From NCBI GenBank assembly GCA_017305535.1, contig JAFKKN010000003.1:62001-126000 (forward strand): DNA of 64,000 nt. The letters run 5' to 3'. Source of the stretch: Hyphomicrobiales bacterium. Lineage in GTDB: Bacteria; Pseudomonadota; Alphaproteobacteria; Rhizobiales; Xanthobacteraceae. The notes under the pieces were generated by a model, which did not search any database, was not told where the DNA came from, and was given only the letters and a program-made list of their open reading frames with translations. Position numbers and translations under genes: made by a program. This document shows positions 3,643 through 29,488 of the stretch, in pieces. Within the stretch, counting starts at the first letter, position 1. The number at the start of each line of letters is the position of its first letter.

Positions 3643-3694
3643 CGTGAGGTTGTTGCGGTGCAGTGCGCCGCACCGACCTCTGAAACCGTTGCGG

Positions 3695-3870
3695 TTGGCT
3701 AACACTCCAGTCCGTTAAAATTGGAGAGTCAACGATGACACTGAAATACCTACGAAAGTTTTTGCCTCGAATGCTTTGGGTCCGCTTTGACTTTAAACTT
3801 CGATTCTAAGAACTGATTGTGTGGCCACCGGCGCAGCCGGTGGCCACCTCTCTTGACAAAGTTGAGAGAG
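3695..3870 (+). ncRNA. Candidate tracrRNA
   Basis: The plus strand has the layout of a type II tracrRNA. The anti-repeat CCAGTCCGTTAAAAT (3707-3721) ends in the TTAAAAT typical of such RNAs. A short stem GTCA-acga-TGAC (3728-3739) sits where the nexus belongs. Two strong hairpins follow: a perfect 12-bp stem at 3821-3832/3836-3847 and a 10-bp stem at 3848-3857/3861-3870. The anti-repeat can pair over 15 positions with GTTTTAGCGGACTGG at 3918-3932, including two G-U pairs; GTTTTAG is a common type II repeat start. The second hairpin also has two pairs that are G-U only on this strand, which favours plus-strand transcription. No promoter or U-rich end is obvious, and the 80 bases between nexus and hairpins are longer than usual. 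Ends are approximate. Confidence 0.45.
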
Positions 3871-3913
3871 CGAAGCACGATCTCGCAGTGTAACGGCTGT
3901 TATTGGCAGACTT

Positions 3914-3953
3914 ACTGGTTTTAGCGGACTGGTGATTGAGGGCCTCCCGTTAA
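3914..3953 (+). repeat. Lone CRISPR-repeat-like sequence
   Basis: GTTTTAGCGGACTGG (3918-3932) begins like many type II repeats and is the near-perfect inverted copy of 3707-3721 (TTTTARCGGACTGG, 13 of 14 bases). If it is a 36-base repeat it would run to about 3953. No second copy with a spacer exists in the window, so this is at most a relic or single-unit repeat, or one half of a long-range helix within one RNA. Confidence 0.35.
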
Positions 3954-3971
3954 CAAGCTTATGCACAAAAT

Positions 3972-3993
3972 GGGGCACCCTGCGGGGTGCCCC
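3972..3993 (-). terminator. Rho-independent terminator-like hairpin after the restriction-modification gene
   Basis: A perfect 9-bp stem, GGGGCACCC (3972-3980) and GGGTGCCCC (3985-3993), closes a four-base loop. On the minus strand it is followed by ATTTTG, and it lies 73 bases past the stop codon of the gene ending at 4066. It could also end plus-strand RNA from the tracrRNA region, where it is followed by TTCCATTT. Confidence 0.6.
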
Positions 3994-4065
3994 TTCCATT
4001 TGCGGACGAAGCCCAATCGTTTTCGCGCTACCGCTTTGAACAGTGTGCGACTCTGATTGTACCAG

Positions 4066-7000
4066 CTACGCTGACTTTCGCTTTCGTATCGCGCGCTCCT
4101 TCGGTGCTCTCTTCTCTGCAATCGTTGGCGGCTTTGTCGTCGCAAGTTGCTCTTGCGGTTGTTTTCCGCCAGCGATGGGCAATTTGAACTGGGGTTGCCG
4201 CCGCGCCTCCTCGGCAGTTGGGCGGCGAGGTTTTCGCTTTGTTGTCTTGGGCAATTCTGTCTCCGAAACCGCAGCCCGGGAAAGATTAAGTTCCAAGAGC
4301 TTCGCCAACGCGTCTTCCTCGGAAATGTCTGAAGCCCAGCCGTAAGCCGCTGCGACAGCGGCATCAAGGTCACGGTGAGCATCGACGAGCCACGGCGGCC
4401 GCTGATTGTAGAGATTGGTCAGCGTGCGTTCGCGCAAGGCTGCCGCCGCAATCGTATCCTTCGGCAGAATGCGGTCCGGATATCCTGGAACGACCTCCGG
4501 TTCGATACGGATGAGATCGGGTGGATTCAGCCAGGCATTGCGCAAATGGTCGAGACGTTTTGCTGCCTTGGAAATCGCTAAGGCGCGTGGATCGGCAGCA
4601 TAGTGCTGTGCGGGGATGTTCGGGGTAAGGCCTTCGGGAAAGGGGAAGGTTTCGAATACACCCGCGCTGTTGTACGTGGGATCATTTCCGACGCCATGCC
4701 ATGCGCATGTTCTCGAGGTCCACGCCTCGTGAAAGCGAGAATGAAGAATGCCAAAGAACGTGTCGTCCGATCGCATAAACGCGAATGCGCGAGAATCTGG
4801 GACCACAGTGCTATCGAGCCATGCAAAGATCCGGTGCTTTGCCACTCTTGGGGTTGCCAGATAGCGCTTATGAGCCTGCATCGCCATTCGTAATGCTGGT
4901 CGCGGCTCGACATGCCGCCACCAGTTTAACTTATAGGTGGCGCGCCGATTTCCGGATCGCTCGGGGAAGACATATTCTTTGATGTATTGGAAAGGGCCGT
5001 CATAGAGGGATGCCTCTCGCTCTGACATTTCCCAACCAAAGTCGATGAGCCACATATCTCTGGGCCGGCGTGTGATATCCATCCCGTTACGCCAGGGGCG
5101 CAGCACGTCGGAGCTTGGTCTGCCATTGGGATTGAGTGGCAAGCGCAACCAACTGCGAGCAAGCTCGCCGGTAACGTCGAAAGCGCCCCCTTTGGTGTTT
5201 CCCATATGGGCGATTTCTAAGTTTTCCGACAATTGCGCGACGCGTGTAAAATTCAGCGACCCCGCAGTTAGATCCGCATTGATTGTTGTGGCGGCTTTGC
5301 CGTCAAGTCGGACTGCCCCCTGGCCGGGACCGAAGCAAACAAGTGATACACGAACGGCAGCGCCATCGATCACCCAGGGTTCGTCCCCCCATGCCTCAAA
5401 GATACGGCTCTCAGAGACGATCTCGTCCAATACCTTACGATTTGCGCCACTGCGAATAGAATTGGTTGCGACCAATCCAACACGCTTGACACGCTCGCCC
5501 TTGAGGGCTGCCCGTGCCTTTTCAAACCAATAGCATACGAGGTCAGCTTCGCGAGAAACACGGCCGGCGTAAGCGTCGAAGAGTTGTTCTACAGCTTGGT
5601 CGCCGAGGCCAGATCGCATGACCCGTATCCCTAGAAACGGCGGATTGCCGACGATAAAATCCACCTTTGGCCATTCTGCTTCGGAATATTTGACAACGTG
5701 GGCCGACGCCTTTGATCGCGATTGTTTCGCTTGTGTAACCTCTTCTAAGAGGGTCGGCGCAACCGCGACGAGCGCGTTGCGACATTCAATGGAATCGAGT
5801 TTGCGCAGAATTGGCTTAGGTTTCGCGTGAATACCGTTTCGTAACCTCCACTGAATGTCGCCGATCCAGATCGTCGTGCGCGCAAGCTCGGCGGCCAATG
5901 GATTGATTTCGATGCCGCGGAGAATTTCCGGCCCGACGATTGGCAGGCGTGGTTGAAGGCCGAGCATCTCACATTCAAGGTTTGCTCTGTTCTCAATGTC
6001 CTTCACACCCTGCAAGGCCAAATAGAGAAAATTTCCGGAGCCGCACGCGGGGTCCAGAATTTGTAAATGGCGCAAGCGTTCGAGGTAGCGGGAGCGTACC
6101 TCTTCCGCGGCTTCCAGGAGCGTCATGCGCCGACGCACTTTAGCACGCATAGGCGGCTTGGCTTTTCCGGATGGCAGCCGTTCGATTTCCTCTTTTGCGA
6201 TCGACCATTCATCGAGCAGGGGTCTGAAAATGACCGGCTCGACGATCCGGATGATTTTTTCCCGGTCGGTGTAGTGCGCTCCGATCTGCGCTCGTTTGTT
6301 TGGGTCCAGAAACCTTTCAAACAGCGTCCCAAAGATACTTGGATCGATCAGACCCCAGTCAAGACTGCCGGCGGCTATCAACAGCCCGATGTCGCCGTCA
6401 TCCAAGGGCAGCGCGCGCCGGCCATCGAACAGTCCACCGTTGAACCATGCAATGTCGTTGAGGTCGAAATCTCCGCCGCTCTCCATGGCTTCAAAGAGCT
6501 TGTTCAAATAGCCTTGCGCTCGCTCGGGCTTTTGCGCGGATTGCCGAAGCAATTTAGGAAATAAGCCGTCCGGAAGAAGCTTGACGCTGTTGGCGAAGAA
6601 GCAGAAGACAAGCTGGTTGATGAAGTGGGCGATGTCCTCCGGCGTGCCTCGCCCCTGAAGACGCAGTGCAATCGTGGAGAATTTGTCAGCGGCTTCCGTC
6701 GTTACTGCGGCGCGCGTCTTGGTCGGCTTTAGTTTCTCGGGGTCATAGAAGACATTCCGAAGAATTTCACGAGCGCTAGCGTCAGCAAGATCATCGAGCG
6801 TGAACTCGTACTTTGCGGGAACAGTGTTGGTCCATGCCGTGTGAATTCGAAAATGCTCGATATCGCAAACGATTTGAAGCGGAGGGCTTTCGAGCGCCGG
6901 CGCATAGCGGATCAGTTGATGGAGCGCGTCGTCCAGATTTCCATTCTTCCGTTTATATTCCCAGGCAAAGTAGTCTCGCTTCCAGACATCGGCAAAGCCT

Positions 7001-7209
7001 CTTCCGCCTCCGACTTTCGCAGCCCCTTTCTCGAAGGCGAAGTGCTCACCTGTGGGGTCATCTTCACTTGGCGTCGGATGATCAAAGAGCGAACAAAGAT
7101 CGATGAAATGTTCCTGGGCGCTCTGGCGCTCATTTAATGACGCCCGTTTCCACTTCTTGATGAACGCAACAGGTGTTATCGGCGCGCGCGCGCCGCCAGC
7201 CGTACTCAT
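4066..7209 (-). CDS. MmeI-type (type IIL) bifunctional restriction endonuclease/adenine methyltransferase
   Basis: Single-chain restriction-modification protein of 1047 residues expected to cut at a fixed distance from its site and to methylate one strand of the site. The N-terminal nuclease has the family pattern D-X9-E-X-K at D74, E84 and K86 (ADVWKRDYFAWEYK). A helical linker leads to the N6-adenine methyltransferase with SAM motif DPACGSGNF (386-394) and catalytic NPPF (522-525). The remaining half should hold the target-recognition and C-terminal domains. The last 60 residues are basic and low in complexity. The frame opens at 7254, but MSTAGGARAPITP at 7209 has GGGGG just upstream and looks like the real start. 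No separate specificity or methylase gene is needed in this family. It stands next to cas9, as in defence islands. Confidence 0.9.
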   Translation of the reverse strand: MSTAGGARAPITPVAFIKKWKRASLNERQSAQEHFIDLCSLFDHPTPSEDDPTGEHFAFEKGAAKVGGGRGFADVWKRDYFAWEYKRKNGNLDDALHQLIRYAPALESPPLQIVCDIEHFRIHTAWTNTVPAKYEFTLDDLADASAREILRNVFYDPEKLKPTKTRAAVTTEAADKFSTIALRLQGRGTPEDIAHFINQLVFCFFANSVKLLPDGLFPKLLRQSAQKPERAQGYLNKLFEAMESGGDFDLNDIAWFNGGLFDGRRALPLDDGDIGLLIAAGSLDWGLIDPSIFGTLFERFLDPNKRAQIGAHYTDREKIIRIVEPVIFRPLLDEWSIAKEEIERLPSGKAKPPMRAKVRRRMTLLEAAEEVRSRYLERLRHLQILDPACGSGNFLYLALQGVKDIENRANLECEMLGLQPRLPIVGPEILRGIEINPLAAELARTTIWIGDIQWRLRNGIHAKPKPILRKLDSIECRNALVAVAPTLLEEVTQAKQSRSKASAHVVKYSEAEWPKVDFIVGNPPFLGIRVMRSGLGDQAVEQLFDAYAGRVSREADLVCYWFEKARAALKGERVKRVGLVATNSIRSGANRKVLDEIVSESRIFEAWGDEPWVIDGAAVRVSLVCFGPGQGAVRLDGKAATTINADLTAGSLNFTRVAQLSENLEIAHMGNTKGGAFDVTGELARSWLRLPLNPNGRPSSDVLRPWRNGMDITRRPRDMWLIDFGWEMSEREASLYDGPFQYIKEYVFPERSGNRRATYKLNWWRHVEPRPALRMAMQAHKRYLATPRVAKHRIFAWLDSTVVPDSRAFAFMRSDDTFFGILHSRFHEAWTSRTCAWHGVGNDPTYNSAGVFETFPFPEGLTPNIPAQHYAADPRALAISKAAKRLDHLRNAWLNPPDLIRIEPEVVPGYPDRILPKDTIAAAALRERTLTNLYNQRPPWLVDAHRDLDAAVAAAYGWASDISEEDALAKLLELNLSRAAVSETELPKTTKRKPRRPTAEEARRQPQFKLPIAGGKQPQEQLATTKPPTIAEKRAPKERAIRKRKSA

Positions 7210-7254
7210 GACGCAACCCCCGCAACGCCGTCTGTATTCAGATCGGCACCTCAA

Positions 7255-28698: not shown

Positions 28699-28868
28699 GC
28701 CCCATCTGTCCTTGTGCCTGAGAGTGTTATCCCTTCGGCGGAGCGGAGGCGTCGGAGGCCTCGCAACTCGCTTTCCAGATGCTGTATTGCAGGAAGACGG
28801 TCCTTTTGCCTGAGAGTTTCCGGGGCGGTTGCTCCTTCGGCGCCGGCGCCAGGCCGGTCTCTCCCATC
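28699..28868 (-). promoter_or_regulatory. Tandem glycine riboswitch upstream of sdaA-glyA
   Basis: Read on the minus strand, the first aptamer runs from about 28866 to 28797 with GGGAGAGACC, GCGCCGAAGGAGCAA and AAACTCTCAGGCAAAAGGAC, all matching the glycine aptamer. The second follows with GCCGAAGGGATAA and ACTCTCAGGCACAAGGAC, ending near 28700. This two-aptamer arrangement is the classical glycine riboswitch. Between it and sdaA, GGGGC (28699-28703) can pair with GCCCC (28668-28672), which lies between the ribosome binding site and the ATG, so translational control is possible. Glycine would be expected to switch the operon on. Confidence 0.93.
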
Positions 28869-28870
28869 CG

Positions 28871-29488
28871 CTGCGTCAATCGGTCGATCGTCTCCCGGGT
28901 CTGCGCTCGTTCGTTTATTTCGACGGCGGTTTGTTTCGATGTCCGACAGAGATCGCACATCCGATGCTCTGAGCAATAGCTTATGTTGGTGACGGAGTCA
29001 TCTGTCAGGACAATTCGTGGTGAAGTATTTCGTGCTCCGCGTTTCAGTGTGAAGTCGGTTGTATCGCGCATTTCTCGACACGGGATGAATTCGACAGCCG
29101 ACATTCATGATGAAAAGCAATCATCTGCGGGTCGCTTACCGAGCGACGAATGAGTTCCGTGACGCCTGAACGCTTGTAGTGAATTGCTCGGGTGAATTGA
29201 GCGACGACACAGGCATCGGAGCAGTTATTGCGTCGATCTGCCACATTACCGTCAGGAGCTATCTTTGTCGGTAAGCGTGCGCCGTCATGATTATCGCTGC
29301 CGCACTGCGAGCATCGATGGGTCCGTACCTATTTGAAACGGACAAATCTGTGTCGATCGCTGCGGCTGGCGACGTCATCGACGGGACTTTCTGCAAACCT
29401 CTGGCGTCTCATGTTGACAAGACGGGGGAGCCTGTGGTCATCTCTTCAAAATAGTATACTGTCGTCAAGATATAATATCTGGGAGCGG
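28871..29488. other. Intergenic region between the glycine operon and the molybdenum hydroxylase operon
   Basis: No gene is supported here. The left part must hold the promoter for the riboswitch RNA (minus strand). The right end has AT-rich palindromes just before the hydroxylase operon. Upstream in-frame codons from 29333 are not used because they contain no ribosome binding site and lie outside the family alignment. Confidence 0.6.
29453..29480. promoter_or_regulatory. Paired palindromes in front of the molybdenum hydroxylase operon
   Basis: AGTATACT (29453-29460) is an exact palindrome. AGATATAATATCT (29468-29480) is an exact odd-centred palindrome with 6-base arms and it includes TATAAT. 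The second ends one base before the ribosome binding site of the operon's first gene, so a bound protein would block expression. Its GATAT-N-ATATC form is a short version of the AT-rich motif seen at 47845 and elsewhere. The GntR/FCD protein encoded in the same operon is a natural candidate. Confidence 0.5.

Follow-up and report, generated by a model that had tools for sequence, protein, structure and literature searches.

A degenerate CRISPR repeat and a small ORF beside the tracrRNA of an alphaproteobacterial type II-C cas9 locus

The cas9 locus and its tracrRNA

The stretch of DNA analysed here (the window, 64,000 nt, C1:62001–126000 of its own genome, G000) contains a cas9 gene whose product is 87% identical to a Nitrobacter winogradskyi protein. 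Its assignment to subtype II-C comes from the make-up of the locus and from kinship, with no subtype model, and the features of the region are listed in Table 1. An MmeI-like DNA methyltransferase/restriction protein (4066–7254, − strand) adjoins the tracrRNA, and a glycine riboswitch (65.9 bits) is found at 28788–28876 (− strand). The same genome has a second type II-C locus (L005, G000:C14:278000–297900) with an array of 36-nt repeats (38 core copies) and its own tracrRNA, upstream of which a search for the lone repeat described below (R′) found none.

Table 1. Features at and upstream of cas9 in the window
Feature	Position	Strand	Basis or remark
cas9, type II-C, 1171 aa	66..3581	−	Pfam RuvC_III, HNH_4, Cas9_a
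Hairpin 5′ of the guide-like stretch	3648..3678	+	Fold −20.1 kcal/mol; kept in two Nitrobacter
Guide-like stretch CCTCTGAAACC before R′	3677..3687	+	CTGAAAC in common with N. winogradskyi; no convincing target
R′, ectopic degenerate CRISPR repeat, crRNA orientation	3688..3721	+	Match to array repeat; duplex energy
GGAG, Shine-Dalgarno of the small ORF	3723..3726	+	Predicted to be sequestered by R′
24-aa ORF MTLKYLRKFLPRMLWVRFDFKLRF, ATG...TAA	3735..3809	+	Conserved with N. winogradskyi
12-bp hairpin after the ORF, possible weak terminator	3821..3847	+	Stem sequence differs in two Nitrobacter
Likely tracrRNA promoter TTGACA-17-CACGAT	3853..3881	+	Similar hexamers and spacing in relatives
tracrRNA anti-repeat (the "lone repeat" of the initial annotation)	3918..3954	+	Complement of array repeat; conserved in relatives
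Nexus region and tracrRNA terminator stem (3972–3993)	3955..3993	+	Loci of relatives; terminator scan

The CRISPR array lies at G000:C1:59157–60643, ending 1.4 kb left of the window. Its 36-base repeat is GTTGCGGTTGGCCCTCAATCACCAGTCCGCTAAACT; 23 copies contain the 20-base repeat core, and 21 of these are exact over all 36 bases. Past the last repeat, on the + side, comes AAGGCCTTGGAAACAGGGCCTTTTTT, an inverted repeat accompanied by a T run, and the arrays of four related loci (L036, L037, L038 and L041) likewise have a T-run stem at the end that agrees with GTTGCGG.. as the crRNA sense. No such stem was seen at the located array end of L039, and the array end of the second system (L005) has an inverted repeat and lacks a T run. 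We take GTTGCGG.. to be the crRNA sense because of this array-end stem, the conservation of the element at 3918, and the guides of related loci that end at the 5′ edge of R′ (see below). One array spacer has a near-match to a single phage (27/30 by eye, E 0.1), and the spacers of two Rhodopseudomonas arrays had no phage match. The PAM used below, NNRNAY, is a poorly known one drawn from that single near-match and the sites of loci L011 and L012.

The initial annotation of this region had described a 15-bp helix between CCAGTCCGTTAAAAT (3707–3721) and GTTTTAGCGGACTGG (3918–3932), and the helix is indeed there, with 13 Watson-Crick pairs and two G-U pairs that both exist only if the + strand is the RNA. 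By itself such a stem is only a mild surprise and weak evidence, as the longest stem in 3695–3953 with G-U permitted has 18 pairs and 3 of 200 dinucleotide shuffles of that segment contain a stem of at least 15 pairs (longest 17). The pairing goes beyond chance because both halves match the repeat of the array left of the window, in opposite senses, which is the array-repeat check that had been proposed for it. R′ agrees with the array repeat at 12/12 and 13/15 positions flanking a 7-nt middle (9 nt in the array repeat), and the segment 3918–3944 is identical to the reverse complement of the array repeat at 25 of 27 positions and continues with a bulge to 3954. The roles first given to the two halves have to be exchanged: the array sense with its array-end stems, the conserved tracrRNA body in relatives, and the guide ends rule out the original assignment and make the 3918 element the anti-repeat and 3688–3721 the lone repeat.

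All 16 close loci compared (9 distinct) have the 3918 element upstream of cas9, together with GTTAACAAG and a terminator stem, and the tracrRNA body is also kept in Rhodopseudomonas and Tardiphaga loci that lack R′ by the survey criteria given below. An anti-repeat complementary to the array repeat, with a nexus and terminator conserved beside cas9, is what a type II-C tracrRNA should have, and these sequence features identify the + strand from 3918 to about 4000 as the tracrRNA of the adjacent II-C Cas9. Its promoter is likely TTGACA-17-CACGAT; the pattern TTGAC.-16/18-CAC..T occurs in 4 of 12 related loci, similar pairs were seen by eye in relatives, and a consensus promoter scan reported none at 3853–3881. 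A 10-bp hairpin annotated between the two halves is present (3848–3857/3861–3870, two G-U pairs), although it overlaps the −35 element of this likely promoter. The annotated 12-bp hairpin is that at 3821–3847, which is kept in the two Nitrobacter with another stem sequence and was not reported by the terminator scan. We take the "4-bp nexus-like stem" of the same annotation to be part of the larger predicted leader hairpin over the Shine-Dalgarno sequence discussed in the next section, not the tracrRNA nexus.

The lone repeat, its guide-like stretch and the small ORF

R′ is thus placed, by its match to the array repeat, as an ectopic degenerate repeat with the capacity to pair with the tracrRNA. 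The R′:anti-repeat duplex is predicted at −37.4 to −38.3 kcal/mol in the window and −42.6 kcal/mol in N. winogradskyi, and co-folding bears out the proposed fold-back, as the minimum-energy fold of 3648–4002 includes this pairing. The tracrRNA and a lone repeat copy are on the same strand, with the degenerate repeat 5′ of the anti-repeat, and the architecture is like that of long-form tracrRNA (tracr-L), as was first suggested. The pairing arms of R′ are nearly identical in the window and N. winogradskyi and the flanks have diverged. Farther upstream, the hairpin at 3648–3678 and its counterparts have folds of −20.1 (window), −17.2 (N. winogradskyi) and −15.9 kcal/mol (N. hamburgensis), with arms that differ.

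Between R′ and the anti-repeat lie a 24-aa ORF and the strong hairpin at 3821–3847. The ORFs of the window and N. winogradskyi are identical at 60 of 75 nt with no indel, and 10 of the 15 changes fall at codon position 3 (P = 0.0085); this form, R′ with the ORF, is known from two genomes only and the conservation statistics are accordingly thin. A degenerate 27-base pattern for PRMLW[VI]RFD, with one mismatch permitted, matched 2 of 391 family genomes, the window's own and that of N. winogradskyi. Pfam gives no match for the peptide, and an exact-pattern search of viral contigs did not turn up its 9-residue core. An Rfam search yielded three hits, all far below gathering scores, and a promoter scan identified no promoter for an R′ transcript.

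In both species the R′ hairpin is predicted to bury the GGAG of the ORF (P(unpaired) 0.0 and E −16.2 in each; z −2.58 in the window and −2.27 in N. winogradskyi). Pairing with the anti-repeat is predicted, again in both, to displace this leader hairpin and still to cover the first two G of GGAG; the last two Shine-Dalgarno bases would then be unpaired with probabilities of 0.4 and 0.38 in the window and 0.92 and 0.9 in N. winogradskyi. The sign of any regulation is uncertain, because the leader alone hides the Shine-Dalgarno sequence and the tracrRNA leaves its last two bases partly or mostly unpaired.

The 11 nt preceding R′ resemble a guide; the corresponding stretch in N. winogradskyi is CAACTGAAACA. 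The window's guide, at the 5′ edge of R′, has no match to the cas promoter region, and a cis target was found neither by exact search over 930 nt nor with mismatches allowed; the anchored match in the interval between cas9 and R′ is at most 4 nt (at most 5 nt in N. winogradskyi). The 18-kb cas region (L004) holds no second copy of at least 8 nt and only two 7-nt copies besides the guide itself, and the second II-C locus has only 7-nt copies. Elsewhere in its own genome the full 11-nt guide occurs once more, at C14:431178, followed by GTAGTGAT, which does not fit NNRNAY; by simple arithmetic, a genome of this size should contain any given 11-mer about twice by chance. The N. winogradskyi cas region has a 9-nt copy of its guide at L036:5005, followed by CTCGAAC. 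An 8-nt guide core with the PAM NNRNAY is found genome-wide at 3 sites in the window's genome (control 2) and at 9 in N. winogradskyi (control 2), where the sites with a fitting PAM include one 10-nt match (L129) and two 9-nt matches. All 12 sites, defined with this poorly known PAM, are inside stop-to-stop frames of 540–1758 nt, and blastn found no locus common to the 3 and the 9. A convincing trans target of the window's guide was not found by this soft test with its weakly founded PAM.

The N. hamburgensis X14 plasmid NC_007959.1 (L047) keeps a full-length cas9 and the tracrRNA. R′ and the start of the ORF are deleted there, and TGA stands in place of the ORF's TGG. Repeat-like pieces occur at three places on this plasmid; the two that were read have a decayed look and lie on the other side of the origin at a distance of about 15 kb. 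The Cas9 of this plasmid, considering the plasmid only, is possibly without a working array nearby. Three more Nitrobacter loci (L050–L052) have tracrRNA-like pieces and decayed repeat pieces.

Candidate guides with cis matches in related II-C loci

Loci for comparison were collected with the window's Cas9 protein (matches in 33 of 391 family genomes, its own included, and in named records, 10 loci), with tracrRNA patterns, and with the second II-C Cas9 of L014 (43/397 order genomes, 61/385 class genomes), taking the best matches of each search, at most 30. Loci were dropped if the match started off the N-terminus, the upstream region was shorter than 300 nt or its first 150 nt were identical to another, which left 80 upstream regions. 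An anti-repeat core was found in 69 of the 80 and an R′-like element, defined by a duplex at or below −26 kcal/mol, in 14 of those 69. Shuffled controls, 20 for each of 62 regions (1240 in all), gave an R′-like element in 27 cases, by which one or two of the 14 could be chance finds; none of the 1240 had both R′ and a guide match.

In eight of the 14 (8/80 regions), the 3′ end of the stretch before R′ matches the interval between cas9 and R′ exactly over at least 9 nt: L011 (13 nt), L012 (10), L014 (11), L017 (12), L019 (11), L067 (11), L074 (12) and L101 (9). Per-locus null fractions are 0 to 0.0004 (0.0012 for L012 in an earlier test), and the eight are related loci, not independent events. 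In every one the matching guide ends at the 5′ edge of R′. The R′-bearing loci with no counted match are the window (L001), N. winogradskyi (L006), L027 (broken cas9), L093, L105 and L124. An uncounted 9-nt match, whose last base is a mismatch, was seen by eye in L093. Two other candidates, L016 and L078, were rejected, having 7-nt matches only (null 0.02 and 0.06) and falling outside the final survey criteria.

We noticed afterwards that the second base 3′ of the target is G in six of six loci (L014, L017, L019, L067, L074, L101), and it is A in L011 and L012, which are closer to the window's Cas9. The G would fit a shared PAM. A TTGACA starts 3–6 nt beyond the target in L012, L019 and L067 and is absent there in the other five. 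By eye, the region between cas9 and the guide target of L012 also contains an apparent 27-aa ORF and a long, GC-rich hairpin. Taken together, the sequences of these loci point to natural single guides in alphaproteobacterial II-C systems as well.

Interpretation and comparison with known systems

The reading that we tentatively favour is that the window holds a natural-single-guide locus whose guide has lost its cis target, and whose repeat has turned into a tracrRNA-binding control element for a peptide. In the lineage of the window and N. winogradskyi the guide would no longer have a cis target and R′ would now be the leader of the 24-aa ORF, whose Shine-Dalgarno site R′ alone would hide. 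The tracrRNA, in trans or through cis read-through, would pair with R′ and the first two G of that site, and would bring in RNase III and Cas9 as it does on a pre-crRNA; the peptide would be kept off, or its production would depend on how the CRISPR system stands. This reading builds on facts of the sequence, namely the potential for pairing, the similar ORFs of two species and the absent cis target, and from them we infer that R′ RNA is made, that the tracrRNA acts on it and in which direction. The N. hamburgensis plasmid speaks for this explanation: where the repeats that were read look decayed, R′ and the start of the ORF are gone and TGG has become TGA, and cas9 and the tracrRNA are still there. 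A bolder version, in which the tracrRNA is also an antisense regulator and the peptide, made only when the tracrRNA is missing or tied up, would be part of a Cas9-linked guard or sensor, is possible but doubtful.

We consider it rather unlikely that R′ is simply the decaying relic of a natural single guide once present in an ancestor, with an incidental ORF beside it. The absent cis target, the absence of R′ from Rhodopseudomonas and Tardiphaga relatives, its deletion in N. hamburgensis and the decayed pieces in L050–L052 would all suit such a vestige; near-identical pairing arms between diverged flanks, and an ORF that changes as coding sequence does, speak against it. A plain tracr-L-type natural single guide, in which a long + strand RNA that begins upstream of R′ folds R′ onto the anti-repeat and a 9–11 nt 5′ guide directs Cas9 to repress promoters between cas9 and R′, seems quite unlikely for this locus. 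Its architecture does stand, having the identical topology and the minimum-energy fold and being shared with the eight loci with exact guide-target matches. Self-repression is not supported here, as the guide lacks a target near cas9 (an anchored match of at most 4 nt, or 5 in N. winogradskyi, and no second copy of at least 8 nt in L004), a conserved small ORF and strong hairpin intervene, and the distance from the start of R′ to the end of the anti-repeat is 270 nt (N. winogradskyi, 269), compared with 72–143 in the eight loci. Less probable again is a scaRNA-like trans regulator, in which R′ and its guide, paired with the tracrRNA, would send Cas9 to a distant gene. The window and N. winogradskyi both retain R′ and the guide core CTGAAAC, and the 11-nt copy at C14:431178 (with its PAM misfit) and the N. 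winogradskyi sites at L129, L036:5005 and the two 9-nt matches could be cited for it, but the core-plus-PAM sites are 3 and 9 against controls of 2 and 2, all lie in long frames with no shared locus, and about two copies of an 11-mer are expected anyway.

Tracr-L, the long-form tracrRNA that acts as a natural single guide in the S. pyogenes II-A system, is described in PMC11417352 and PMC8616872, with an 11-nt guide match according to the latter; the same 2021 review says that tracr-L is found in II-A only. Among open-licence papers from 2020 on, PMC8616872 was the only one to bring tracr-L and II-C together, which leaves absence from print unproved. The loci described here are like tracr-L in that a degenerate repeat precedes the anti-repeat on the strand of the tracrRNA, with a 9–13 nt guide match near cas9 in eight related II-C loci. 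They differ in being II-C, not II-A, and in that three of the eight have TTGACA 3–6 nt past the target, an apparent promoter directed towards the guide RNA; the window itself has no target and has a small ORF between the two halves.

For II-C systems of Neisseria and Pasteurella, scaRNA:tracrRNA pairs have been predicted (PMC6199352), and a 2026 paper (PMC13431127) reports that the N. meningitidis II-C scaRNA lowers efeO translation through the 5′ UTR, independently of tracrRNA, its authors adding that it may act like an sgRNA. As described there, this is likewise a II-C CRISPR-associated RNA that lowers translation by binding an mRNA 5′ UTR; the meningococcal RNA acts on the unrelated efeO mRNA, whereas we propose that the mRNA itself bears the repeat and that the tracrRNA is its partner. 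The II-B scaRNA of Francisella novicida resembles R′ in being a separate degenerate repeat that could pair with tracrRNA, and differs in that the window's guide has no convincing trans target and R′ is on the tracrRNA strand, possibly in the same transcript.

The mRNAs of type I toxin-antitoxin systems resemble the arrangement predicted for the window in that they encode a short basic or hydrophobic peptide, have a leader hairpin over the Shine-Dalgarno sequence and lie beside the gene of a complementary RNA. Here the putative antisense RNA would differ from those in being the tracrRNA. CreTA, the CRISPR-regulated toxin-antitoxin of type I-B and I-F systems, also pairs a tiny gene with an ectopic repeat that lies next to cas genes (PMC9458426, PMC12737573); the present system is class 2, and its putative control is RNA pairing, not DNA targeting. 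Exact, mismatch and anchored searches found no guide match upstream of the 24-aa ORF such as a CreTA-like arrangement would use. Both comparisons are functional analogies, not memberships.

The eight II-C loci with guides are ready targets for tests of self-regulation in II-C, and if the ORF is incidental and the window's locus a vestige, what endures is the set of candidate natural single guides in its relatives. If the favoured reading is true, the window's locus would be a second use of an ectopic repeat, the control of a small ORF by tracrRNA, and would tie a Cas9 system to a peptide, in a way loosely comparable to the link that CreTA makes between type I systems and toxic RNAs.
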